From Phycisphaerales bacterium (GTDB lineage Bacteria > Planctomycetota > Phycisphaerae > Phycisphaerales > SM1A02), in NCBI GenBank assembly GCA_014238965.1, contig JABAAC010000106.1:1-43092 (forward strand): a stretch of 43,092 bases of DNA, read 5' to 3'. Positions 17,803-33,810 of the stretch are shown here, piece by piece (the first letter of the stretch is position 1; each line of letters opens with the position of its first letter). Under the pieces are notes generated by a model. That model worked only from the letters and a program-made list of their open reading frames with translations, was not told where the DNA came from and searched no databases. Both the position numbers and the translations under genes were made by a program.

Positions 17803-18177
17803 ATGCATTGACGGTGATCCCTAGGGCAATCACAGTCTGACAAAACGGCAATCGCATGCCGCGATGGCATATCGCTGCCTTAGTGACTTGATCGCTGGAT
17901 ATGCAGCGTGTGGCGCCATCATGCGAGCCATCATTCAAACATATTAGGCAGTGCGGGGAGCGTTCAATCATCGCGCATCGCGTCTATCTGCAGATTGGAA
18001 ACTGGCACGCCACTTGTGTATGCATCTACCAAGTCTGGCATCGGCCAGACACATGCAGGTTCTCTTCTTAACGGACGTGGCACCTGATCGAGTGACCCCC
18101 CGCGTTCCCGACGTTCGGGAATGGAGGGGCCGTGCGACCAACGCTTCGTTCACAACATCAGGCAAGGAGTAATTGCC

Positions 18178-19053
18178 ATGACTGTCAAGATTCAAGTCAA
18201 GGATGGGCTCAATGCAGCCGCAGCCTACAACTTCGGCGTCACACCCGCCGCACGTGCCTTTGATGGCGTTAACAGTGTTGCACATGGTTGCGAATACACC
18301 AACGGTTGCAACTGGACGAACGCCGCCGCTGGCGTGGGTAACGTTAGCTGGCAATCTGCCGGGGGTGCACCCGTTTATCAAGGATGCTTCCAGACAGGTC
18401 TGTCGCAGGCCACAATGGCGAATGTTCGACTGAGCGACATCGTCGCGAAGGTTGGCATGATCGACTCGATGCTCGCTCAAACCATTGCGGGTATCGGTGC
18501 CCAGTGCCTGGCCACCGCGAGTCGCATTGGCCGCATCGCAACGATTGACGTGAGGCTCGCTCGAAGCCTGTCACGTTTGGCAGCGATTGACTTCCCTGCT
18601 GCGGTGGGCCTATCCAATCTCGCATTGGTGAATCCAATGGCCGCTCGCATGCAACTGCAGCGAAGCGGAGCAATGTTTGATTCCAATGATGTGTTTCAGT
18701 TCACTGCACCAGCACCTCAGGTCTCGATGGGCAACGTGATTGACGAGGGCAGTGCATATCGCATGGTGCTTCAGATTCCTGGCATCAGTGCCGATGCTGT
18801 AGATGTGCTCGTGGCAAACGGCAAATTGGTCATTAGGCCAAACGCACAGGCAGCACAATTGGGCCTGTCAGCCATGGCGAATGAATCGCTCTGGGCTCGT
18901 GAGTTCATCATTGGTCAAGATGTGTGCATCGATGCAATCGATGCCATTGTCTCCAATGGCATGCTTACGGTTGTCCTGCCAAAGAAGGCTGCGTTAAGCA
19001 CCATGGCAGGCAGCACTGTGGCAACTCGAATGAGTGAGGTTGCCGCTTGCTGA
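18178..19053 (+). CDS. Hsp20/alpha-crystallin-domain protein with a long repeat-containing N-terminal region
   Basis: RBS aaggag at 18164. C-terminal 'AYRMVLQIPGISADAVDVLVANGKLVIRP...AIVSNGMLTVVLPKKA' matches the alpha-crystallin domain pattern; about 175 aa precede it. Confidence 0.75.
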   Translation: MTVKIQVKDGLNAAAAYNFGVTPAARAFDGVNSVAHGCEYTNGCNWTNAAAGVGNVSWQSAGGAPVYQGCFQTGLSQATMANVRLSDIVAKVGMIDSMLAQTIAGIGAQCLATASRIGRIATIDVRLARSLSRLAAIDFPAAVGLSNLALVNPMAARMQLQRSGAMFDSNDVFQFTAPAPQVSMGNVIDEGSAYRMVLQIPGISADAVDVLVANGKLVIRPNAQAAQLGLSAMANESLWAREFIIGQDVCIDAIDAIVSNGMLTVVLPKKAALSTMAGSTVATRMSEVAAC

Positions 19054-19087
19054 GCTCATCATGAGCAAACCAAATCAGCACACAGGC

Positions 19088-19126
19088 AAGCGAGGGTCCA
19101 CCCATGGACCCTCGCTTGTTTGTCTT
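19088..19126 (+). terminator. Intrinsic terminator-like hairpin downstream of the first Hsp20 gene
   Basis: Perfect 13-bp stem aagcgagggtcca / tggaccctcgctt with ccca loop, followed by gtttgtctt. Confidence 0.7.
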
Positions 19127-19303
19127 ACATCCACGTAACGAGGGCCTGCCTTTGCGACAGCCAGTTGCCAATTCGGCATGGCTCGACCGCCCATAGATGT
19201 CGAGAGGGGGTTTTTGAGTTGGCATCCCATGTGCATCAAGTGTAGTGGTGGCCATCGGGGCCACCGATTAACACGACGCAGACACAACATACGGAGGTGT
19301 GCC

Positions 19304-19768
19304 ATGTCAACGAGATTTTCAATCCCAACTCATGCAACACTCGGGACAGTTCGTAGCGAATTTGATCGAGTTGTCGATCGTGTAGTGGCGCCAGCCATGG
19401 CGTTGTCCATGGGCCTGATGGATGGCCTTGGGCTGGGGCATGTGCCAGCAATCAATGTGCTGGAAGATGACCACATGCTCATGTTGGAAGCTGAACTGCC
19501 TGGAATGAGGCAGCATCAACTGGACATCAGCATCACAGACGGCGTCCTGACCCTCGCTGGTCGACGCACCGTGGCTCAGTACGGCCAAGATGATGATGAA
19601 ACCGTGCTTCGCAAGGAACGAAACGACATGACGTTCGAGCGTTCAATCCAACTGCCTGAGGCTGTTGAGCAAGACAACATTGACGCTGTGCTTGTCGATG
19701 GTGTCCTCACGATCACCATGCCCAAATCGCGACACGCATGCACGCGTCGCATTGACGTTCGCGGCTGA
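19304..19768 (+). CDS. Small heat shock protein Hsp20
   Basis: RBS ggagg at 19293; 'DDHMLMLEAELPGMRQHQLDISITDGVLTLAGRRT', 'FERSIQLPEAVEQDNIDAVLVDGVLTITMPKS', terminal 'RRIDVRG' (IxV). Confidence 0.93.
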   Translation: MSTRFSIPTHATLGTVRSEFDRVVDRVVAPAMALSMGLMDGLGLGHVPAINVLEDDHMLMLEAELPGMRQHQLDISITDGVLTLAGRRTVAQYGQDDDETVLRKERNDMTFERSIQLPEAVEQDNIDAVLVDGVLTITMPKSRHACTRRIDVRG

Positions 19769-19789
19769 TACGCCGCAAGGAGGTTACAA

Positions 19790-20182
19790 ATGACTACGCA
19801 ACACACAACAATGGACTGCTGCGGCACAATCGAGAACACCCAAAAGCGACCTCAGAGCTACCGCGCTTCGGTAGATGTCCTTGAGTCCAACACTGCATTT
19901 AAAGTGATTGCTGACATGCCTGGAACGGACAGCGAGGCCATCACCATTTCATTGCACGAAAGCACCTTGACCATCGATGCGGCGGTGGCTGACCGGCTAG
20001 TGGGCCGGGGAAGGGTGCGTCGACAAGAGTATGGCGTTGGCGACTTTCATCGCTCCTTCAGAGTAGGTGGCGGTATTGATTCTGATGCTATTGAGGCCGT
20101 CTATGAAGATGGGATTCTCGAAGTCATCTTACCCAAGTCGGCCAAGGCCCAGCCACGTCGCATTGAAGTACGTACGGCCTGA
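19790..20182 (+). CDS. Small heat shock protein Hsp20
   Basis: RBS aaggagg at 19777; 'FKVIADMPGTDSEAITISLHESTLTIDA', 'FHRSFRVGGGIDSDAIEAVYEDGILEVILPKS', terminal 'RRIEVRTA'. Confidence 0.92.
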   Translation: MTTQHTTMDCCGTIENTQKRPQSYRASVDVLESNTAFKVIADMPGTDSEAITISLHESTLTIDAAVADRLVGRGRVRRQEYGVGDFHRSFRVGGGIDSDAIEAVYEDGILEVILPKSAKAQPRRIEVRTA

Positions 20183-20206
20183 CAGATTTCTCTACTCTAG
20201 TTTCAG

Positions 20207-20247
20207 CACACGGCCCTTCCGTCTTGATTGACGGTTTGGGCCGTGTG
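20207..20247 (+). terminator. Long nested hairpin downstream of the third Hsp20 gene, possible terminator
   Basis: cacacggccc / gggccgtgtg outer stem with inner ccgtc / gacgg; no clear T-tract. Confidence 0.4.
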
Positions 20248-20302
20248 TCTGCGCCACAAGCATTGCCATCGTCGCATGTTCAGAGCGTGTAGAATCCCGC
20301 TT

Positions 20303-20905
20303 ATGACCAGCGACACGCAAGCCGTTCAAACTGGCGACGAATCCTCAATAGATATCCGCGACGTACTCCGTCAACACCGAGGTTTGTTGTGGTGTGAGGG
20401 CTTTACATTGCTCTTGGGTGGCATTGCATTAATCATCTACCCCTTGGCCGGGGGCATGGTGCTCGAGACTCTGTTGGGTGTCATTGCCTTACTGGTCGGT
20501 GGAGCATCTCTGCTGCGTGGGTGCTTGGGTGGCTGTGAGCACCGTGGCAGTGTTCTTGTGACGGGCTTCCTTGCAGCAGTGTTGGGCGTTGCGTTATTGG
20601 TGTGGCCGCTTGAAGGGCTCGAAGCGATGGTGCTGCTACTTGCGGCGTTTTGCTTACTCAGAGGCATTGCTGATCTGGCGGGTATTCCCGCTCGGTCGCA
20701 GGTCGCTCCGGTGCTTCAGATCATCAGTGGCCTTGCGGGGGTTGTGCTGGCGACCTTGTTGTTGGTGTGGTATCCGCACGATGTGTTATGGGTGCCAGGG
20801 CTGTTGTTTGGCATTGAATTGATGTTCTTGGCTATGCCAGTGCTCGCCGTGGCGAGTGCGGTATCCGTTCGTCCGGCTCGAAGGGTGGATGTCAAGCAGG
20901 CTTGA
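20303..20905 (+). CDS. HdeD/DUF308-like multi-spanning membrane protein
   Basis: Paired hydrophobic helices 'WCEGFTLLLGGIALIIYPLAGGMVLETLLGVIALLVGGASLLRG', 'LLLAAFCLLRGIADLAG'. Confidence 0.75.
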   Translation: MTSDTQAVQTGDESSIDIRDVLRQHRGLLWCEGFTLLLGGIALIIYPLAGGMVLETLLGVIALLVGGASLLRGCLGGCEHRGSVLVTGFLAAVLGVALLVWPLEGLEAMVLLLAAFCLLRGIADLAGIPARSQVAPVLQIISGLAGVVLATLLLVWYPHDVLWVPGLLFGIELMFLAMPVLAVASAVSVRPARRVDVKQA

Positions 20906-20950
20906 CGTCAAGAAGCGTGAGCACCTTTGCGACTCACACTCCATGGTCCC

Positions 20951-21790
20951 CTATGAAGCTTGTCGGCGATCAAACATATCACGGAGTTGTGCGAGCGCTT
21001 GCTGTTCAATTTGGCGAATGCGTTCTCTGGTCAGCCCCAATTCGCGGCCGGCTTCCTTGAGTGTTCGTGGGGGTCGTCCATCAAGTCCAAATCGCATGCG
21101 CAACACCCCAGTGGCAATAGGATCGAAGTGTTGCAGTGACCCTCGGACGGCTTCCATCGCGTCACGAAATTCAACTTCGGTCGTGGCAGCTTGGCGGTCA
21201 CACTGGGCACTTTCAATAGCGGTTGGCCGATCGCTGTCCTCTCGCCAGCCTCCGCCAAACATGCGGCCGCTGGTGCCCAGCGTTCGCTGAATGAGGGTGA
21301 GTTTGGAGCGGGGGACCCCCATGGCATCAGCCATTTCCGCCGGGGTTGGAGCGCGTCCGTTGCGCTCCTGCAACTCGATGAGTGTGCGATCCCATCGCGC
21401 CATCCGTTGGCGCATGTAGGCGGGAATGTGCATGGGGGGGCCAGCTTCTTCAACAAGTTGCTTAACTGTCTTTCGAATCCACCATGTGGCGTACGTTGAA
21501 AATCGGTGGCCTAGGGCAGGGTCAAAGCGTTCCACTGCCCGAATCAGGCCGATATTGCCTTCGTTGATCAGATCCTGCAACGGTACACCACGGCCCAAAT
21601 AGCGTTTGCTGATGCTCACAACCAGCCGTAGATTCGCTTGAATCATATGGCGGCGAGACGTATCACAATTGTCGTTGATCACCTGCCAGGCAAGTTCTCG
21701 CTCTTGCAGTGGCGTAAGCAAATCGACTCGTGAGATCTCACGGTAATACGTGTCAAGATCACTGATGGGTCGTGCGGGCGACTGTTTCAT
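20951..21790 (-). CDS. RNA polymerase sigma-70 family factor (RpoD/RpoS-like, regions 1.2-4)
   Basis: '[24 protein letters not shown]', '[57 protein letters not shown]', '[30 protein letters not shown]'. Confidence 0.95.
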
Positions 21791-21961: not shown

Positions 21962-23572
21962 TCAGTTTGCTTTGGGCTGCTGCCGCTTGATTCGAGCGAG
22001 GAATTGATTCGCCAATGCCTCATAAATCGCCGTTGGGCACACCAGATGCGAGCACTCGTAGGCAATGATTGCCGTTGCCATGAGCGGCAAACTGATGAAT
22101 CTCGCGTCGGTCATTTCGATCATGATGACAAAGACGGTAATTGGACTTTGTACGACTCCAGCGAAATACGCCACCATGAACAGCATGATGATGAACTGCG
22201 GCTGCAACTCATTGAACCAGCCGCTAAACACGTCTGCGAAGGCATTGCCAAGGCCCGCGCCCACGGAAAGGCTCGGATCGAACAGCCCCCCCGGGATCCC
22301 ACTGATGAGCGTAAAGAACGATCCTCCTGCCTTGGCTGCGGGGTACCACCATGGGTACGAGCCCTGCTCCAAGTGCCATACGTCATAGAATTCGCGCTCT
22401 TTGGGGTCGCTCAGTACTCGGTATGCGCTTTGCACCTCGATGTGCTTGTCGCGGAGGGTGGTACCAGTCTTAAGCAGAGGCATCTCTGCATTGAGGCGAT
22501 GGTACGCCTGTTCAATGTCGCTGCTCGTCGCCGATTGATCGAGATCGAACGTTGCGTAGTAGTCCGTGCCTCGATACATCAAAATGGCCTTGGCCTGTGG
22601 ATATCCGCTGCCATAGGACTGCCCTTGCGAGGCCATGCCAATAGCAGCCAACGTTCCTCCGATGGCCAGCCCGGTCAACCAAGGATGGCGGGCGCATGAT
22701 CGGGTGATCTTGGGGGTTCCCCATACGACGCTTCTGGCAAACAGTCCACCAAGCGTCCCACCGATCATCGCGATCACAGGAACGGCAACCCAGTGGACAA
22801 TGCCAAAGCCGAACTCCTTATTGATCGGGCCATAGAACAAGTAGTCCCAGCCGAGCAGGCCAATGACAACCAGCGATGCGATAAGCACCGTCCGCACAAC
22901 GGTGGCGGCATTGCGTTTTTCAAAGGAGCGGCCGATTTCTTCAAAGGCAAAGACCATGCCCGCAATAGGTGCGTTGAACGCAGCTGCAATTACCGCGCCA
23001 CCGCCACCGAGAATGAGCCCACGCTGCACAAGGTGGTCAGGGAGTTTTCGGAACTTCGAAACCAGATACATGGCGCACGCGCCAACATGCACCGATGGCC
23101 CTTCGCGGCCGATTGTTGGGCCGGTAAATAGACCCAAGGCCAACAACAACGACTTCCCAATGGCAATGCGTACGGACAACATCCCACGGCGAATGGGACC
23201 GTCTGGAACATGAAGGGCTGCGATGGCTTGCGGAATGCCGGTGCCTTCTGTGCCAGGGAAGTACTTGTCTCGCATTCGCATGATGATGGCCATGGACACC
23301 GTGATCGTCGCGCCTGCAACAAAGATGCCAGCCATGGGATCGATGTGCATGCCCCACAAGGCTGCATCACCATGGAGAAACCGGAAGAACGCAAGGCCAG
23401 TGATGTCGAGCCAGCGAAAGAGCCATGCCGCTAGGCCAGCTACCACAGCAGCCAGAATGAGCCAGAAGTAGGTGGGCCAGGGGCTCAGTCGAAAGACTTT
23501 GGCCTTAAAGGCATCCGTGGAGGTGGAAGCCTCTGGATGCTCATCTGTAGTGGGCGGTTTTGTGTCCGTCAA
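21962..23572 (-). CDS. ClC-family chloride channel / H+-Cl- antiporter with an inserted J-domain-like segment
   Basis: ClC motifs 'GTEGTGIPQAIAAL', 'GREGPSVHVGA', 'FAFEEIGRSF', 'SGIPGGLFDPSLSVGAG'; internal 'DYYATFDLDQSATSSDIEQAYHRL...QSAYRVLSDPKEREFYD' resembles a J domain. Confidence 0.92.
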   Translation of the reverse strand: MTDTKPPTTDEHPEASTSTDAFKAKVFRLSPWPTYFWLILAAVVAGLAAWLFRWLDITGLAFFRFLHGDAALWGMHIDPMAGIFVAGATITVSMAIIMRMRDKYFPGTEGTGIPQAIAALHVPDGPIRRGMLSVRIAIGKSLLLALGLFTGPTIGREGPSVHVGACAMYLVSKFRKLPDHLVQRGLILGGGGAVIAAAFNAPIAGMVFAFEEIGRSFEKRNAATVVRTVLIASLVVIGLLGWDYLFYGPINKEFGFGIVHWVAVPVIAMIGGTLGGLFARSVVWGTPKITRSCARHPWLTGLAIGGTLAAIGMASQGQSYGSGYPQAKAILMYRGTDYYATFDLDQSATSSDIEQAYHRLNAEMPLLKTGTTLRDKHIEVQSAYRVLSDPKEREFYDVWHLEQGSYPWWYPAAKAGGSFFTLISGIPGGLFDPSLSVGAGLGNAFADVFSGWFNELQPQFIIMLFMVAYFAGVVQSPITVFVIMIEMTDARFISLPLMATAIIAYECSHLVCPTAIYEALANQFLARIKRQQPKAN

Positions 23573-25019: not shown

Positions 25020-25277
25020 CTCCGTCAGCGTCAGGGCATGCCAAGGGCAGCCATGCGTGGCATGCCTTTGGGCCTCAGAAGCCAAAGGGGCGAATCGCAA
25101 GGAGTTTGTTGTTTGAACGATCCTTGCAAAGGTGTGGCCCGTAGGGCACTAGACGGTCGATTTGAGAACGACCGAAAGGTGCGTTTCGAGTACGTTACGG
25201 ACCTGTTTTGGCGCGAAGATGGTGGACTGGTGATTTCGGAGCAAACACGAGACAACTTGAGCAGCCGCTTTGACCGC

Positions 25278-26810
25278 ATGAAGTGCGGTTTTGTTGCTGT
25301 TTTGGTCTGCGGGGCCACCATGCTTGCTGGTGGATGTGGGCTGAAGGGCTTTCTTGATCCATCCAAGACGGGGTACTTCCACAAGACGCCTACCACGATG
25401 CCGATTCTCGATCGAATCGACGCTATCGAGCCCAGCGGTGATCTTTGGGGTGAAACCTCTGTGGTGACCCCTGAAGATCTCATTCCAAACGATCTGAACT
25501 ACACATTGCATCCTGGCGATCAGCTTGAAATCCAGGTGTATGAGCTCTACGAGCAACAGCGGTTCCACACCTTTCAGCGAAGAGTTGATCAAGGCGGCTA
25601 CATCTCGGTCCCCGAAGTGGGTTCACTTGCGGTCGCTGGACTGACCATCGAACAGGTGCAAGAAGACATTGTTCATGGGTTGAAGAAGAAGGTGATGGGT
25701 TCGCCCACCGCCACTGTCAGCTTGCTTGAAGGGGCTGCATTCAACTACATCATCTACGGGCACGTGCCCTCCCCAGGCCGATTCACATTGAGCGATCCAC
25801 ATTTGAGGTTGCTTGAAGGGTTGACCATGGCCGGCGGCGTGCCGTTGTCGACTCGCCGGGTGTACATCATTCGGCAGGTCAACACTGTTGAGGCACATCA
25901 ATTCAGCCCACTGCCTCGTGAGGAAGCAGTCTCCAGTCAGAACACCCCAGTGCCTGATCTTGAGTCGCTGATTAACTCACTCGATGACACGTTACAGCCC
26001 AGTCCAGGTGCGTTTCCTACGCAAGCGGCGGTGCCAATTGAAATTGAAGACATGCAACCTCCCAAGGCAGCAGCGCCGTCGGTTGAGTCGATCAATTCAC
26101 CGACCACAAGTTATGTCTATCTGCCAGAGCAACAGGCGTGGGTCGAAGTGACCCCAAAAGAGTTGGATGCCGATGCACATCGCACGATCACTTCAGCTCC
26201 TCAAACTGCACATCAAGGCAGCCACACTCTTGGCACGACCGGGGCCGCAGTTCAAGCAATGACCGACCCCGACACATTGATTGCCGCTGCAACGGCAACC
26301 AACGACATCATCTTTGAACGCGTGATTCGGGTGGACTACCAACGGCTGTCCCGTGGCGAGAATGACCTGAACATTGTGATTCGCCCCGGCGATCAGATCT
26401 ACGTCGATGGTCCGCCGCAGGGCTACTACTACCTAGAGGGTGAGATTAATCGAGGTGGGGTCTTTGAGTTGCCCGCCACGGCTGAACGCATCACAATTAG
26501 TCGAGCCATCGCTGGCGCTGGAGGGCTCGGCGCACTAGCCGTTCCCGACCGCGTTGACTTGATTCGGATGGTTGCCGATGGGCGAGAGGCTGCCATTCGC
26601 CTTGACTTGTCTGCAATTCGTTCACGAACGGAGCCAGACGTCTTCCTCAAGCCAGGCGACCACATCATTATTGGTACGACGTTCTGGGCTTATCCGTTGG
26701 CAGTTTTCCGCAACGGCCTTCGCATGAACTACGGCTTTGGCTTCCTGCTTGATCGCAACTTCGGCAATGACGTGTTCGGCCCGCCACCCGTCAACGTGGT
26801 CGGAGGCTGA
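25278..26810 (+). CDS. Wza-type polysaccharide biosynthesis/export lipoprotein (SLBB); a TTG start at 25113 is an alternative
   Basis: Lipobox 'MLAGGC'; 'LNYTLHPGDQLEIQVYEL...RRVDQGGYISVPEVGSLAVAGLTIEQVQEDI', 'IVIRPGDQIYVDGPPQGYYYLEGEINRGGVFELP', 'DVFLKPGDHIIIGTTF'. Confidence 0.9.
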   Translation: MKCGFVAVLVCGATMLAGGCGLKGFLDPSKTGYFHKTPTTMPILDRIDAIEPSGDLWGETSVVTPEDLIPNDLNYTLHPGDQLEIQVYELYEQQRFHTFQRRVDQGGYISVPEVGSLAVAGLTIEQVQEDIVHGLKKKVMGSPTATVSLLEGAAFNYIIYGHVPSPGRFTLSDPHLRLLEGLTMAGGVPLSTRRVYIIRQVNTVEAHQFSPLPREEAVSSQNTPVPDLESLINSLDDTLQPSPGAFPTQAAVPIEIEDMQPPKAAAPSVESINSPTTSYVYLPEQQAWVEVTPKELDADAHRTITSAPQTAHQGSHTLGTTGAAVQAMTDPDTLIAAATATNDIIFERVIRVDYQRLSRGENDLNIVIRPGDQIYVDGPPQGYYYLEGEINRGGVFELPATAERITISRAIAGAGGLGALAVPDRVDLIRMVADGREAAIRLDLSAIRSRTEPDVFLKPGDHIIIGTTFWAYPLAVFRNGLRMNYGFGFLLDRNFGNDVFGPPPVNVVGG

Positions 26811-26844
26811 TCGACATGTGCACGGCGAGCTGACGGTTGTTTCA

Positions 26845-28647
26845 ATGAGCACGATGAAGTCCAACGCGCTCTCTCAAGGTGCGCCAGTCCGCCCCGCGGC
26901 AGCATCCCTCGCCGCTGCCATCGTGCTCGCGACGTTCATTTGGCTGTTTTGGGCGTTTCTTGAGCGGCAGTTCCGCTTTGCTGTGGAGCAACAAGCTGAC
27001 TGGGGTCACACGCTGGTCATTCCATTTATCGCGGGCTGGTTCGTGTGGCTCAATCGAGGTCGAATTCTCGAGCAACCGCTTCGACCAAGTATCACTGGTC
27101 TCGTGATCATGATCGGCGGCGTTGGGTGGTACAGCTTCACGGCGCTGGGCCCAGTCTTCATGCGGCATCACAACCTAATGGGCATAGGCGTGGGGGCGGT
27201 CATCTTCGGTTTGGTCTTGGCCTTCTGTGGCTGGAGGGCAATGCGCTACTTGTGGTTTCCGGTGGCCTACTTAGTGATCTTTGGGCAGACTGTGTCAGAT
27301 CGCTTCTTGGACATCATCACGTTCCAATTGCAGGGGATCGCCACGGTCGGCGCCGAATATGGCTTGGCTCTTGTTGGTTACGACGTGTCGCGGGCTGCCC
27401 ACACGATCTACATTCACGAGCCAACGGGCGACGTTCCGGTGAATATCGCTGAGGCGTGTTCGGGCATGCGCATGCTTGTGGCATTCTTTGCACTGGGCGT
27501 AGCGATGGCCTATCGCGGGCTTGATCTTGTATGGCAGCGCATATTGCTCGTAGTCATGGCGGTGCCCACGGCAATTTTCGTCAACGTACTTCGCGTCATG
27601 ACGCTTGGCATTCTGTCTACGGTCGATTCGGGATTCGCCGCAGGCGAGTTTCACACCATGGTGGGCATGCTCTGGCTGATACCAGCATTCTTTATCTACC
27701 TAGGAATCATGTGGATTCTTCGCAATCTTGTTGTGTCCGATGATGCGACAGAGACGGAAGAGGCAAAGGGATCGATTGAATTACGGTTCGGCCCCCGTGT
27801 CAAGGGTGTGTTTATCTCAGGAGTTGCACTCCTCATTGTGGCGGGTGTTTCCTTCTCGATCTTGGCGCACGCGCTCGATGTGCATCTCAGCAAGAAGCCC
27901 GTGCCGCTGCGGGCATCTTTGAGTTTGGTGCCTTCATCCATTGGGCCGTGGCATGTTGTGCAGGAATCTCCTTTCGATGCTGCAATGATTGAACAACTTG
28001 GCACTGAACTCACGATCAGTCGGGTGTATCAGCAAGGGACAGATGGCCCCTCGTTGAACTTCCACGTTGCCTACTACACCGACACAGTCGATCCAATCCC
28101 ACATGTGCCGGATCGCTGCATGACTGCAGCGGGCATGGAAGGCATGACAGCAGAGCCTTCCAACTTGCCGTGGGCGATGTCGGTAGAAGGTGTTAGGCCC
28201 GATGCAGATTTTGTGCTTGATGGCAACCTCGTTGGAGCCGTGTCGGTTGACTCAATCGCCGGCACACCGATGGAAGTGCACCTTCCATCGGGTCATTCGA
28301 CGATCAGGGTGATGGAATTCAAACTCCCTGACGGCCAAGAAGACCGGATCTACGCCGGGTACTTTTTCATCGCCAATGGTCGCATGACGCCATCCCCAGC
28401 AGGGGTGTATGCCACGGCGTATGTGGGTCCTGAAGCGTACGCGTACTATTGCAAGGTACAGGTTGTGATGGGCGGTGATCGCGAATTCGATCAGGACACC
28501 TATATCAAGTACACGAGCGAATTTTTGTCCTTGGCAATGCCCTACATCATGCGTTCATTGCCGGACTGGGCCCACCTCCTGGACGGCGAACTTGAGATCG
28601 ACAATTCCTTGGTTAATTCTCCCGACAGTCTCTTTTTGGAGCAGTAG
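26845..28647 (+). CDS. Exosortase (EpsH-like) fused to an EpsI-like C-terminal domain
   Basis: Multi-TM; catalytic-type 'NIAEACSGMRML' (C205), 'VNVLRVM' (R250), 'EFHTMVGML' (H270); C-terminal periplasmic domain 'YYTDTVDPIPHVPDRCMTAAGME' typical of EpsI. Confidence 0.88.
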   Translation: MSTMKSNALSQGAPVRPAAASLAAAIVLATFIWLFWAFLERQFRFAVEQQADWGHTLVIPFIAGWFVWLNRGRILEQPLRPSITGLVIMIGGVGWYSFTALGPVFMRHHNLMGIGVGAVIFGLVLAFCGWRAMRYLWFPVAYLVIFGQTVSDRFLDIITFQLQGIATVGAEYGLALVGYDVSRAAHTIYIHEPTGDVPVNIAEACSGMRMLVAFFALGVAMAYRGLDLVWQRILLVVMAVPTAIFVNVLRVMTLGILSTVDSGFAAGEFHTMVGMLWLIPAFFIYLGIMWILRNLVVSDDATETEEAKGSIELRFGPRVKGVFISGVALLIVAGVSFSILAHALDVHLSKKPVPLRASLSLVPSSIGPWHVVQESPFDAAMIEQLGTELTISRVYQQGTDGPSLNFHVAYYTDTVDPIPHVPDRCMTAAGMEGMTAEPSNLPWAMSVEGVRPDADFVLDGNLVGAVSVDSIAGTPMEVHLPSGHSTIRVMEFKLPDGQEDRIYAGYFFIANGRMTPSPAGVYATAYVGPEAYAYYCKVQVVMGGDREFDQDTYIKYTSEFLSLAMPYIMRSLPDWAHLLDGELEIDNSLVNSPDSLFLEQ

Positions 28648-28683
28648 CAGCTGGTTATTGCCAACTGCACATGGAACAGCACA

Positions 28684-31600
28684 ATGACTACGAGTAAGAA
28701 AAAACGCAAGAGCAAGAAGAAGGCCGGCCGCTTTAACACGCGGCTCCTTTTGATCGTCGGGCTGACCACATCGATCGTGGTTGGGATTGCTGGCGGCTTG
28801 ATCTTTCTCCGCATGAAGGGGTCAGTGTCTCGCAATTTGCACGCTGGGCAAACTCATCTTGAGGAGGGCAAATGGGAGAAGGCTGAGCGTGCATTTGGTC
28901 GGGTGGTCAAGAAAGACCCAACTAATGAGGACGGCATGGCTGGCCTTATGCAGGTCTATGACAATTGGGTCCCCGATACACCAGAGCGAGGGAGCCAATT
29001 GCAAGGGTCTTATGCCCGTGCCATCCTGCATGACACCGAGTACCACCCCAGCGATGACGATCGTGCCTATCGCGCGATGGAGTTTCTATATCAAGAGGCC
29101 CGGGGGATGAGTTTGGACAGTCAGTGGAAGGCATTGCAGAAGTTGGCTGACACGGTGCGCGACAAATTCGGGGATGATTCCGGGCCTGGGCAGCGAGCCA
29201 TCTACTACCGGGCCTTGAGCCGACTTGCGTTAGAGACTGAGAGTTTTACGCGTGATCGTGATGACAAGGGCAACGTCATCTTTCCCGGGGAAGAGGAGTT
29301 GACGCTTTACCTGTCACTTCGTCCTGGAGACGATGAGGGCATGGCACAACTTGCGTTCGGCCGTATGGCGGTTGCACGCCGATTGGGCCTCGATGAGCAG
29401 TTCCAACAGGAAAAACGCAACCTTGCTTTAGCAGAGGCAACCTTCAAGGAGGCTTTGGCAGCTAATCCCGAGGGGCCTGCAACGTTGTTGTCGTACATAC
29501 GCCATCTTGTGCTACACGAGCTCATAACAGTGTCCAGACAAGCGAGGCAGGTCGGCACGCTGACATCCGAGGAACGCGAGGCCATCCTCGCAGAGTTGCA
29601 GGTCAATTTAGACCTCGTCGAAGAGCTGCTCTACAACGACCCAAATGTCAATCCATTACTTTTGGCGGACTTCTTTCGATTCGTCCGTATTGGCGATGAC
29701 AAACATGGTGAAGAACGAATTCGCGATCTGGCGCAGCACTACTTAAAGACACATCCGGATGATGATCTGCGCCGGCTGGAATTGGCCGAGAGTTATACCA
29801 ACCTCTTAGAATTTGATCATGCTTTGAGGGAAGTCCGCATCGTGATGGATGCCGCGGATCGGCCCGTAAGCAAGGGGGCAGCACTCCAATATCTGGTACG
29901 AACAATGGCGGCAAGCAGGCTGCTGTCCATCGCCTCTCGTAAATGGAGCATGTCCGAGGACGATGCCGGTCGTGCGCAGGCGATTGAAGACGCTGTTGAA
30001 GCAAGGGCGGCTCTGGTAAAGCAGGTGCAAGGCGACCAGGACACGCAGTTCGTAGTTGAGGCTGACAGCCGTCTGGCCTTTATGCGAGGTGAACATCGAG
30101 ATGCGGCCCGCCTCATGGATCAGCTGTCAACAGGTGGGAGCCTATCGCCAGAACTTCTGCGAATGAACGCAGTATCTCTTGAGTCCATTGGGCAGCCGGG
30201 GCTTGCTGCTGACCGTCTACGAACGGCAGTGAAGTTGAATCCGGTATCGATCAGCAGCCGTGCGCTGTTGGCAGGTTTACTTGGCCGGATGCGGCAGCCA
30301 GGAGAAGCACTGCAAGTGATTCAGGTCATACCCTCGACCGTGTACGAAGAACGGCCGGAATTGGTGTCGCTTCGCCAGTCACTGCACGCTATGCAGATTG
30401 TTGAAAGTGGCGGTGACATCTCATCTGTAGGCAATCCAGTGCTCGAAGCCATCATGAGTGCAGACAAATTGCAGCGAGAGGGTCGTGTGCAAGAGGCGGC
30501 GGATGTACTTCAGGTTGTCATCGATTCCAGCGAAGATGGCAACTCATTGTTGCCGGCAATTGTTGCTGCTGCGCAGATTGAATCGTCCTTAGGTAATCGT
30601 GACTCGGCAATCTCCTTAATTGACCGAGCCCGGAACATTCGACCTGATGATGATCGACTGAAGCAAATTCAGTTATCGCTGGCTATTGATGATCCCATTG
30701 AGCGCCTTCGCGCCTACGTTCAACAGTCTGAACAAGACCCAGCGAAGCTCACAATCACAATGATCCTCGCAATGGAGTCACTCTCTAGAGCGCAAGAGGC
30801 TCAAGCGAATCGATTGGATCGCATGGGGGAGACGGCATCGGCCGATGCGGCGAGAGCATTGGCTGCGCGTGCTGAGGAAGCCGCCGCACCCTTGCGAGAA
30901 TCATTGGTGGATGTAACTGGGGTTGATGAACAAACGTTTTTGGTGCAGTTCCAAGCAGTCTTGCGTGATGGCGATCTTGATGAAGCAGAGCGAATGTTGG
31001 CTGCTGGGCGTCAGAACAACGTCGATCAGGCTGGCGGTAATTTGATAGAGGCAGAGTTGTTGTTGGCGAGATTCCAAGCGGCAACTGTTGCGAAAGATCC
31101 AGATGCTGCAAGTATCGGCAAGCGTGCGGTGGCCGCAGCTCGGCGTTCTACCCAAGAAGCTGGCTGGAACAGTGGTACTTGGCGGCAGTTGGGGCGCGTT
31201 CTTCAGATGACTGGCGATATTGAAGAGGCACGACTGGCGTGGGCCGAGGCGTGGCGTCGAAATCCGACCGACGCTAGTACGGTGCGCGCATACGCTCAGT
31301 TGCTCCTTCAGCCCGGCGGTGATCCCCCTCAGGCGGCCCGCGTTCTTAGGGAAGCAGCAAAGGATGACCGTGGCGACCGAACGCTTACCGAAGATTGGCT
31401 CGCTGTAGAAGGGGCGTTTGGTGAGAAGGCCATTGCTCTTGTGGAACGGAATCAAATCTACAATGTATCGCCAGGCGACCGCACAAACGCTATTCGATTG
31501 GCAGAGCTATTGGCCACGCTTGAGCCTACGTTCGAGTTGATGGCCAGTGAGGAAACTACAGAACCACTGACAGCAAGACAGTGGTTGGCCATGTCGACGG

Positions 31601-33810
31601 CTGAGCAGCAAACATCGCTTGACAAGCTTTCAAAGGCTTGGGCCATTCGTGCCGGGGAGATCTGTGACCAATTGGCCTTGAGTGATGATGCGCACTTACA
31701 GCACATGCTCTTGCATGCAGGAACATTGAGGGATCTTGGCCGTCGGCAGGACATGCTTGCACGACTAGCACGATTCGTGGATCGGACGGACGACTCGCCT
31801 GAGCGAGACCGTGTGCAGGAAGTGCTGTCCGCGGCGCAATTCCTCATTGCATCCGATCGAGAGTGGGAAGCGGGAGAGTTTCTCAGAGCGAGGCTTCATT
31901 TGCAGGGGCCAGACCGACATCTTGAGGGCGCTTTGGGCACCGTGCTTGCATCAATTGGTAAGCCAGCCGACGCGGTTCCCTTGTTGCGCGGGGCAGTTGA
32001 TGCTGGGCGCACAAATTTGCGGCCGCGGTTGATCGAAGTGCTTTTGCAATTACACAGGATTGATGCAGCCGAAGCAGTGCTTGCGGATGAGATGGCCGCA
32101 TCGCCTACTGAATACCGTTCTGCAATGTTGCAGGCGCTCATTGCACGGGCCAAACAAGGAGTTGCCGAAGGGCAGGGCGATCAAGCAGCTAGGCAGGCCG
32201 CCCAAGTCTCGTATCGCGAGTTTCTTGAAGAGGCCAGCCGCCGAGATCCAGAGCAGGTTGCACCCTATCTAGAACTGATCGCTTCGATGATACGGGAGTA
32301 CCGCCGAACCATCGACCGAAGCACTCTTGAGAATGCACTTCGATACGCTGATGCGGCCGCTGAAATTCGCAGTGATGTTGCCCCACTCGCGATCCAGCGT
32401 GCGATGGTGCTTGAGGCGCTTGGCGAGCCACGAAAAGCTGCCACGGGTCTTGAGTCGTTCTTGCGTAGGGCGCCAGATGCGGACGAAGTCCGAGTCACAT
32501 TGGCACAGATGCACATCGCTGCGGGCACACCAGAGCGTGCTCGAACTGTGTTGGAGGGTGCAGTTGTCACTGCCCGCAATCCCTCTGCTTGGCGGCAGCG
32601 ACTTGCCGAGCACATCATGGAACAAAATGGTGACCGAGTAGAGGCCACAGCCCTTATGGCCAAAGCGTGGCAAGATGAACCAACGAGCGTGCGGCTCAAT
32701 CGCCTGTGCGATTTGACCCGGACACACGAGCCGTGGGATCACGAAGCGGTTTATAAAGCTATTCAGGCAAGGCCAAGTGAGTTGAAGGAAAGCCCAGTAG
32801 TGCGTGGCTTGCAGGCTCGCGCTCTGAGCGTGCAAGGCCTTCGAGATCACGCTCGCGAGTCGTTGCGTGAAGCCTGGATTGCCTATCAGCGTTCCCTAGC
32901 TGAAGGAGCGATTCCACCAGAGCAGTTGCGCCGTTGGTTCGAGGATGTCTATGTAGTCTTCCGGGGAACTGATACGGCCGCCGCTGACAGCTTTATTGTG
33001 GAGGTCACTGAATCGTCCACGGATCCCTTCGTCTTGGCAGGCCGGGCACACTTCCTATCGCTCCGTGGGAATGCGGAGGATTACGCAAAGGCAATTCAGT
33101 TGGTGCAGCAGGTGCTCACAACGAAGACTGGGTCAGCGAGGTTGGCATCGTTGTCACAACTTGGGGCCATTCAACTCAGATCTGGCCGCGAAAGCGATGC
33201 CGTAGATACGTTCAGCGAAGTTGTGGAACTTGATCCAAATAATCCCGTGGCCTTGAACAATGTTGCTTGGCTGCTTGCGACGCTTCAAGACAACCCAACA
33301 AAGGCATTGCCACTGGCCTTGCGAGCAGTTGAGTTGGATTCCACCGAACCGACATTTATGGATACCGTGACCGAGGTGCAGCGGCGTTTGGGAAATCACG
33401 AAGCGGCGATGACCAGCCGTCTTTCGATGTTGCGGTTACAGCCTAATAACCCGGATTTGCTCAAAAACGTGGCGGAGGCCTATTTGGAGCACTTCTCCGA
33501 CGCTCAGGCTGCCCGTCCATATGCGGAGAGGGCCTTGCAGCTATCGCCTCGAGATGCAGCTGCTTTGGATTTAGCGGGCTGGGTGGACTTTAAAGATGGC
33601 AAAGTTGCCCGGGCCGAAGATCGGCTGAAGCAGTCTATTCGCCGGGCACCATCGGCCCAGGCACACCTACATTTGGCTCAGGTTCTGGCCGATCAGGGTC
33701 AGCGAAGCAAGGCTTTAGACCAATTGAGACAGGCCGACGCCCTTAGTAAGACCCCCGAGATGCAAAATCGGGTCAAATCGGTTCGGGACCATCTGGAGGG
33801 GACGGGGTAA
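28684..33810 (+). CDS. Very large TPR-repeat membrane-anchored protein (1708 aa), PEP-CTERM/EPS-associated TPR type
   Basis: N-terminal basic stretch plus single TM, then many TPR-like units, e.g. 'HLEEGKWEKAERAFGRVVKKDPTNEDGMAGL', 'GRESDAVDTFSEVVELDPNNPVALNNVAWLLA'. Confidence 0.85.
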   Translation: MTTSKKKRKSKKKAGRFNTRLLLIVGLTTSIVVGIAGGLIFLRMKGSVSRNLHAGQTHLEEGKWEKAERAFGRVVKKDPTNEDGMAGLMQVYDNWVPDTPERGSQLQGSYARAILHDTEYHPSDDDRAYRAMEFLYQEARGMSLDSQWKALQKLADTVRDKFGDDSGPGQRAIYYRALSRLALETESFTRDRDDKGNVIFPGEEELTLYLSLRPGDDEGMAQLAFGRMAVARRLGLDEQFQQEKRNLALAEATFKEALAANPEGPATLLSYIRHLVLHELITVSRQARQVGTLTSEEREAILAELQVNLDLVEELLYNDPNVNPLLLADFFRFVRIGDDKHGEERIRDLAQHYLKTHPDDDLRRLELAESYTNLLEFDHALREVRIVMDAADRPVSKGAALQYLVRTMAASRLLSIASRKWSMSEDDAGRAQAIEDAVEARAALVKQVQGDQDTQFVVEADSRLAFMRGEHRDAARLMDQLSTGGSLSPELLRMNAVSLESIGQPGLAADRLRTAVKLNPVSISSRALLAGLLGRMRQPGEALQVIQVIPSTVYEERPELVSLRQSLHAMQIVESGGDISSVGNPVLEAIMSADKLQREGRVQEAADVLQVVIDSSEDGNSLLPAIVAAAQIESSLGNRDSAISLIDRARNIRPDDDRLKQIQLSLAIDDPIERLRAYVQQSEQDPAKLTITMILAMESLSRAQEAQANRLDRMGETASADAARALAARAEEAAAPLRESLVDVTGVDEQTFLVQFQAVLRDGDLDEAERMLAAGRQNNVDQAGGNLIEAELLLARFQAATVAKDPDAASIGKRAVAAARRSTQEAGWNSGTWRQLGRVLQMTGDIEEARLAWAEAWRRNPTDASTVRAYAQLLLQPGGDPPQAARVLREAAKDDRGDRTLTEDWLAVEGAFGEKAIALVERNQIYNVSPGDRTNAIRLAELLATLEPTFELMASEETTEPLTARQWLAMSTAEQQTSLDKLSKAWAIRAGEICDQLALSDDAHLQHMLLHAGTLRDLGRRQDMLARLARFVDRTDDSPERDRVQEVLSAAQFLIASDREWEAGEFLRARLHLQGPDRHLEGALGTVLASIGKPADAVPLLRGAVDAGRTNLRPRLIEVLLQLHRIDAAEAVLADEMAASPTEYRSAMLQALIARAKQGVAEGQGDQAARQAAQVSYREFLEEASRRDPEQVAPYLELIASMIREYRRTIDRSTLENALRYADAAAEIRSDVAPLAIQRAMVLEALGEPRKAATGLESFLRRAPDADEVRVTLAQMHIAAGTPERARTVLEGAVVTARNPSAWRQRLAEHIMEQNGDRVEATALMAKAWQDEPTSVRLNRLCDLTRTHEPWDHEAVYKAIQARPSELKESPVVRGLQARALSVQGLRDHARESLREAWIAYQRSLAEGAIPPEQLRRWFEDVYVVFRGTDTAAADSFIVEVTESSTDPFVLAGRAHFLSLRGNAEDYAKAIQLVQQVLTTKTGSARLASLSQLGAIQLRSGRESDAVDTFSEVVELDPNNPVALNNVAWLLATLQDNPTKALPLALRAVELDSTEPTFMDTVTEVQRRLGNHEAAMTSRLSMLRLQPNNPDLLKNVAEAYLEHFSDAQAARPYAERALQLSPRDAAALDLAGWVDFKDGKVARAEDRLKQSIRRAPSAQAHLHLAQVLADQGQRSKALDQLRQADALSKTPEMQNRVKSVRDHLEGTG

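Follow-up and report, generated by a model that had tools for sequence, protein, structure and literature searches.

We analyzed a stretch of 43,092 nucleotides from a bacterium of the planctomycete order Phycisphaerales (contig JABAAC010000106.1; hereafter the window), which encodes on its minus strand a ClC H+/Cl- antiporter-like protein. Our computations show that a J domain of the DnaJ/CbpA type sits in the loop between helices L and M of this transporter. Having lost the residues with which J domains work on Hsp70, it has apparently been put to new use as an integral additional part of the antiporter. On balance, we think it probable that selection maintains this Hsp70-independent J-like domain as an acidic module that caps the antiporter on its outer side or makes contacts there, with an effect on transport that we infer. 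More tentatively, we suggest that a captured J domain, stripped of its Hsp70 function, became a built-in extracytoplasmic regulatory subunit, which was fixed in one clade and seems to have reached another class in one piece.

The inserted J domain and its single gain

The ClC gene is one unbroken open reading frame (ORF) of 536 residues with a TTG start (21962-23572, minus strand, as for all features of the gene given below). Within it, positions 22382-22564 encode a segment of 61 residues (residues 337-397), which translates exactly as quoted in a preliminary description of this DNA that had read it as a J-like module. Profile, fold and structural comparisons bear out that reading. The Pfam DnaJ model (PF00226) matches these residues at 2.7e-8 in the whole protein and at 2.5e-10 when the segment is searched alone, with a score of 34.2 bits against a curated cut-off of 27.8, and the best PDB match in a sequence-only comparison is Thermus DnaJ (E=5e-7). 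Among 56 aligned homologs, 17 carry the insert and 16 are matched by the DnaJ model. The AlphaFold2 model of the whole protein, computed from a 56-row alignment (predicted local distance difference test, pLDDT, 91; predicted template modelling score, pTM, 0.90), places four extra helices (338-341, 350-363, 375-388 and 390-401) between helix L (residues 324-333; 22574-22603) and helix M (residues 410-423; 22304-22345). Modelled alone (pLDDT 76), the insert finds its best Foldseek matches in DnaJ-type J domains, most of them with TM scores of 0.65-0.77. The lineage-specific L-M loop as a whole, delimited by alignment with insert-free orthologs and by the AlphaFold2 helix borders, extends over residues 334-409 (22346-22573) and includes the linkers MYRGTD and DxWHxxxGYPWW.

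The homolog alignment and taxon survey that the preliminary description had proposed as checks define both the site of the insertion and its spread. A scan in which each species was represented by one genome revealed 17 further distinct orthologs with the insert at the identical place, nearly all of them from marine Phycisphaerales metagenome-assembled genomes (MAGs); with the window protein, the carriers number 18. Insert-free relatives come from Phycisphaerales, other Planctomycetota, Verrucomicrobiota, Myxococcota and Gammaproteobacteria; the distance from helix L to the GxFxP segment is usually 44-64 residues in these, against 112-113 in the carriers, and same-locus orthologs lacking the insert have an L-M loop shorter by about 65 residues. 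Two Verrucomicrobiota loci (L098 and L104) hold long ClC-like ORFs of 612-613 residues that are of a different type. Across the window's family, matches good enough to indicate the insert (E of about 1e-34 or lower, the next best match being 6e-16) occur in 17 of the 181 genomes, which belong to 3 of the 45 genera; they are present in 9/9 and 6/6 genomes of two genera and in 2/3 of the window's own. A member of the latter genus, G002, which is 97% complete, is apparently without this ClC altogether (best match 8e-12), and the transporter thus appears dispensable or lost there.

When a CLC tree was built by a quick method from an alignment stripped of the insert columns, all 18 carriers fell into a single clade that requires one change (SH-like approximate likelihood-ratio test, SH-aLRT, 98). 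The order of genes around the window ClC, namely three HSP20 genes, an HdeD-like gene, a sigma factor, the ClC, lipoyl synthase, an export gene and an exosortase, is common, with some inversions, to most insert loci and to close insert-free loci. This shared order indicates that the loci with and without the insert are one and the same, as it stood before a single insertion and as it stands after it. On present evidence, the J domain was gained once and then retained in the clade. The carriers also settle the nature of the junctions: the source genome is a 211-contig assembly, which might favor an assembly or annotation artefact fusing two genes, but identical junctions recur in 17 other distinct sequences, which come from many MAGs and from other studies, and such an artefact is left with a vanishingly small chance. 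Chance similarity, frameshift and misassembly are likewise excluded by the recurrence of the identical insert, in agreement with the earlier view of it as a fixed insertion.

Loss of Hsp70 docking and the side of the membrane

The inserts differ consistently from J domains that work with Hsp70. The His-Pro-Asp (HPD) tripeptide is found in 0/18 inserts, as against 20/20 free-standing J domains from the same phylum. Its equivalent in the window protein, residues 364-366 (22475-22483), reads MPL, and HPL, QPL, QTL, RTL, SPL, TPL or QKL stand at this position elsewhere, with Leu replacing the Asp in all 18 carriers. The preliminary description was thus right that HPD is lost, but the tripeptide it named, PLL, lies one residue off. 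Moreover, the 16 residues preceding the tripeptide contain on average 1.7 Lys or Arg in the inserts versus 5.25 in the free-standing J domains, and the mean net charge is about -7 for the insert core versus -0.5. Together, these comparisons show that the Hsp70-docking features, both HPD and the basic face of helix II, have been lost in all members, and with them gone, stimulation of the Hsp70 ATPase is as unlikely as was first supposed.

The predicted location of the domain points in the same direction. The topology of CLC-ec1 allows each loop to be called cytoplasmic or outer; across the 18 carriers, most loops called cytoplasmic in this way are positive (+1 to +3), whereas the outer loops are neutral or negative. 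The L-M loop of ClC-5 is described as extracellular or luminal (PMC11962092). Hence, by CLC homology and charge, the J-like domain is expected on the periplasmic or extracytoplasmic side and, consequently, should meet neither DnaK nor ATP. These observations bear on the idea that the J domain is functional and brings DnaK to the transporter, whether as a cochaperone or as the proteostasis sensor that had been proposed. Such a role has clear J-domain homology in its favor; however, with the HPD missing and its Asp turned to Leu in every carrier, the basic helix II face lost and the loop predicted to be extracytoplasmic, we consider it very improbable. The sensor role in particular is disfavored because the domain should face away from both DnaK and ATP.

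J folds divorced from HPD have precedents. The mitochondrial proteins Pam16/Tim16 and TbPam18 retain the J fold with a degenerate HPD, and Hsp70-independent roles have been proposed for them (PMC11349236). Compared by description, they resemble the insert in combining this fold with a degenerate HPD; unlike the insert, they belong to mitochondrial inner-membrane proteins whose J-like domains face the matrix. As for the DnaJ/CbpA J domain (PF00226) itself, the insert shares its sequence profile and four-helix fold but differs in being acidic, in lacking HPD and the basic helix II face, and in lying within a transporter loop.

Selection on the insert and its proposed role

Identity to the window protein is 31-51% in the insert and 65-88% in the core. 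For the closest pairs, the ratio of nonsynonymous to synonymous substitution rates (dN/dS), a rough measure here as many synonymous distances are near saturation, is about 0.04-0.6 in the insert where estimable, against 0.03-0.07 in the core. The positions of the insert that never vary comprise the J-fold core, the Leu in place of the former Asp, and YRxTD and ERxxYDxW at the flanks. The J-like domain is constrained, less so than the transporter, and the computation shows its fold core to be under purifying selection.

These patterns need to be set against the alternative that the J domain is a tolerated passenger in a permissive outer loop, which persists since it is folded and harmless and plays no part in transport. 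The faster evolution of the insert relative to the core would fit, as would a gene neighborhood that is alike with and without it; further, the L-M loop of ClC-5 accepts a 163-residue unstructured tagged polypeptide, the protein still working with reduced current (PMC11962092). Yet, the domain has not been lost among 18 divergent orthologs, nor in 15/15 genomes of two genera, its dN/dS stays below 1, and new residues have become invariant, including the Leu that stands for the Asp of HPD and a Trp past the domain. We therefore regard a mere passenger as rather unlikely.

Instead, we favor the view that the inserted J domain, anchored on helices L and M, would serve as a cap or contact module that is rigid, acidic and independent of Hsp70. 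Such a cap may tune the access of anions or protons or the stability of the antiporter at the outer face, or may dock an envelope partner. Its role may be regulatory or structural, or may lie in assembly. Helix M could offer a route of coupling, for it runs straight into the GxFxP anion site: the corresponding GIPGGLFDP (residues 425-433; 22274-22300), of which nearly all positions are invariant in the 56 homologs, lies directly past this helix. By analogy, the J-like domain might be a covalent counterpart of TMEM9 and OSTM1, the accessory subunits of eukaryotic CLCs that act at the luminal face (PMC11962092); these differ in being separate eukaryotic proteins, each with its own transmembrane segment, and the comparison is meant as an analogy.

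Several points weigh against the cap. Evolution is faster in the insert than in the core, with dN/dS mostly several-fold higher, as would be seen in a passenger; the topology is drawn from homology and charge; an acidic cap near the anion path may be counterproductive unless it works through protonation or partner binding; and, as the neighborhood is alike whether or not the insert is present, no partner gene came along with it. The last of these applies equally to an envelope docking or assembly module, which would bind an extracytoplasmic protein or a wall or matrix component, or aid the folding of the antiporter, and would have no direct effect on flux. The predicted extracytoplasmic position, the Hsp70-independent function reported for degenerate J-like domains (PMC11349236) and PDB matches among which are J domains that form part of axonemal and respiratory complexes are in keeping with such a module. 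However, no candidate partner gene accompanies the insert, and the conserved residues lie mostly in the fold core and linkers rather than forming an obvious outer patch; accordingly, we assign it a low probability.

The transporter core, the wider record and the gene neighborhood

The preliminary description had the insert interrupting the ion-translocating fold. In the model, however, CLC helices A-R, lettered by their order, are all present and built around the insert, and the transport residues T111, E157, E212 and Y517 are invariant across the 56 homologs. The Voltage_CLC family (PF00654) matches residues 96-507 at 7.4e-71, above its curated cut-off, while the protein scores below the ClcA equivalog cut-off; the full model resembles CLC-ec1 structures in Foldseek (E of about 1e-15). 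The motifs in the same homologs are as follows: GTGIP (residues 110-114; 23231-23245), the equivalent of the GSGIP anion-site motif, is invariant; GREGP (23096-23110) contains the gating glutamate E157 (E148 of CLC-ec1), with G155, E157, G158 and P159 invariant and R156 nearly so; FAFEE (22937-22951) has invariant E211 and E212, the latter being the inner proton glutamate (E203 of CLC-ec1); GLFxP is invariant; and Y517 (22022-22024) corresponds to Y445 of CLC-ec1. Given the invariance of its transport residues, the protein is expected to be an otherwise ordinary, intact Cl-/H+ antiporter. It thus shares with the CLC-ec1/ClcA antiporters the full helix set, GxEGP, GxFxP, the inner glutamate and the tyrosine, and departs from them in having GTGIP where GSGIP is expected and a J-like domain of about 65 residues between helices L and M.

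In keeping with the preliminary description, which was aware of none, no CLC with an internal J domain was described in the open-access papers searched; these likewise yielded nothing relevant on DnaJ combined with a chloride channel or on planctomycete DnaJ architectures, and no relatives were found in viral contigs. Both component families are known, and it is their combination, position and history that are new to the open-access sources searched. Bacterial CLCs serve as model transporters and consist of little more than their membrane core. Here, the gain of a defined domain, with same-locus relatives from before and after it, makes a natural experiment on how a CLC is changed by an outer-face module. 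The apparent reuse of a J domain where no Hsp70 partner should be within reach also bears on the uses of the J fold besides Hsp70 docking.

One carrier (G302/L032) belongs to a planctomycete genome of another class. Its J-bearing ClC lies on contig 48 of G302 (locus L148, 7852-9456) between TauE-like and GDSL-lipase genes, with none of the usual ClC neighbors at the locus, and the ClC is absent from the 29 relatives searched (E<=1e-20). In the CLC tree, it groups with the window ClC. For a neighboring subtilase, five genomes of G302's own family hold relatives at E 1e-147 to 1e-199, whereas the window's family provides only weak partial matches; a neighboring histidine kinase also has its best match on G302's side, although its large family makes this less telling. 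This carrier probably arose by horizontal transfer of the whole gene, a conclusion drawn mainly from one flanking gene. Contamination is a less likely source, given the kin of the subtilase in G302's family.

On one side of the window ClC (18121-21790), the three HSP20 genes, the HdeD-like (DUF308) gene and an RpoD/RpoS-like sigma factor gene adjoin it, a cluster retained in most carriers and in several close insert-free loci, which suggests an old envelope or acid-stress module of the window's family. Elsewhere in the window (25038-33810), a polysaccharide-export-like gene, an exosortase of the XrtW/XrtD-like kind and a TPR protein of 1708 residues related to PrsT make up an exosortase/PEP-CTERM-type locus beside the lipoyl synthase gene.
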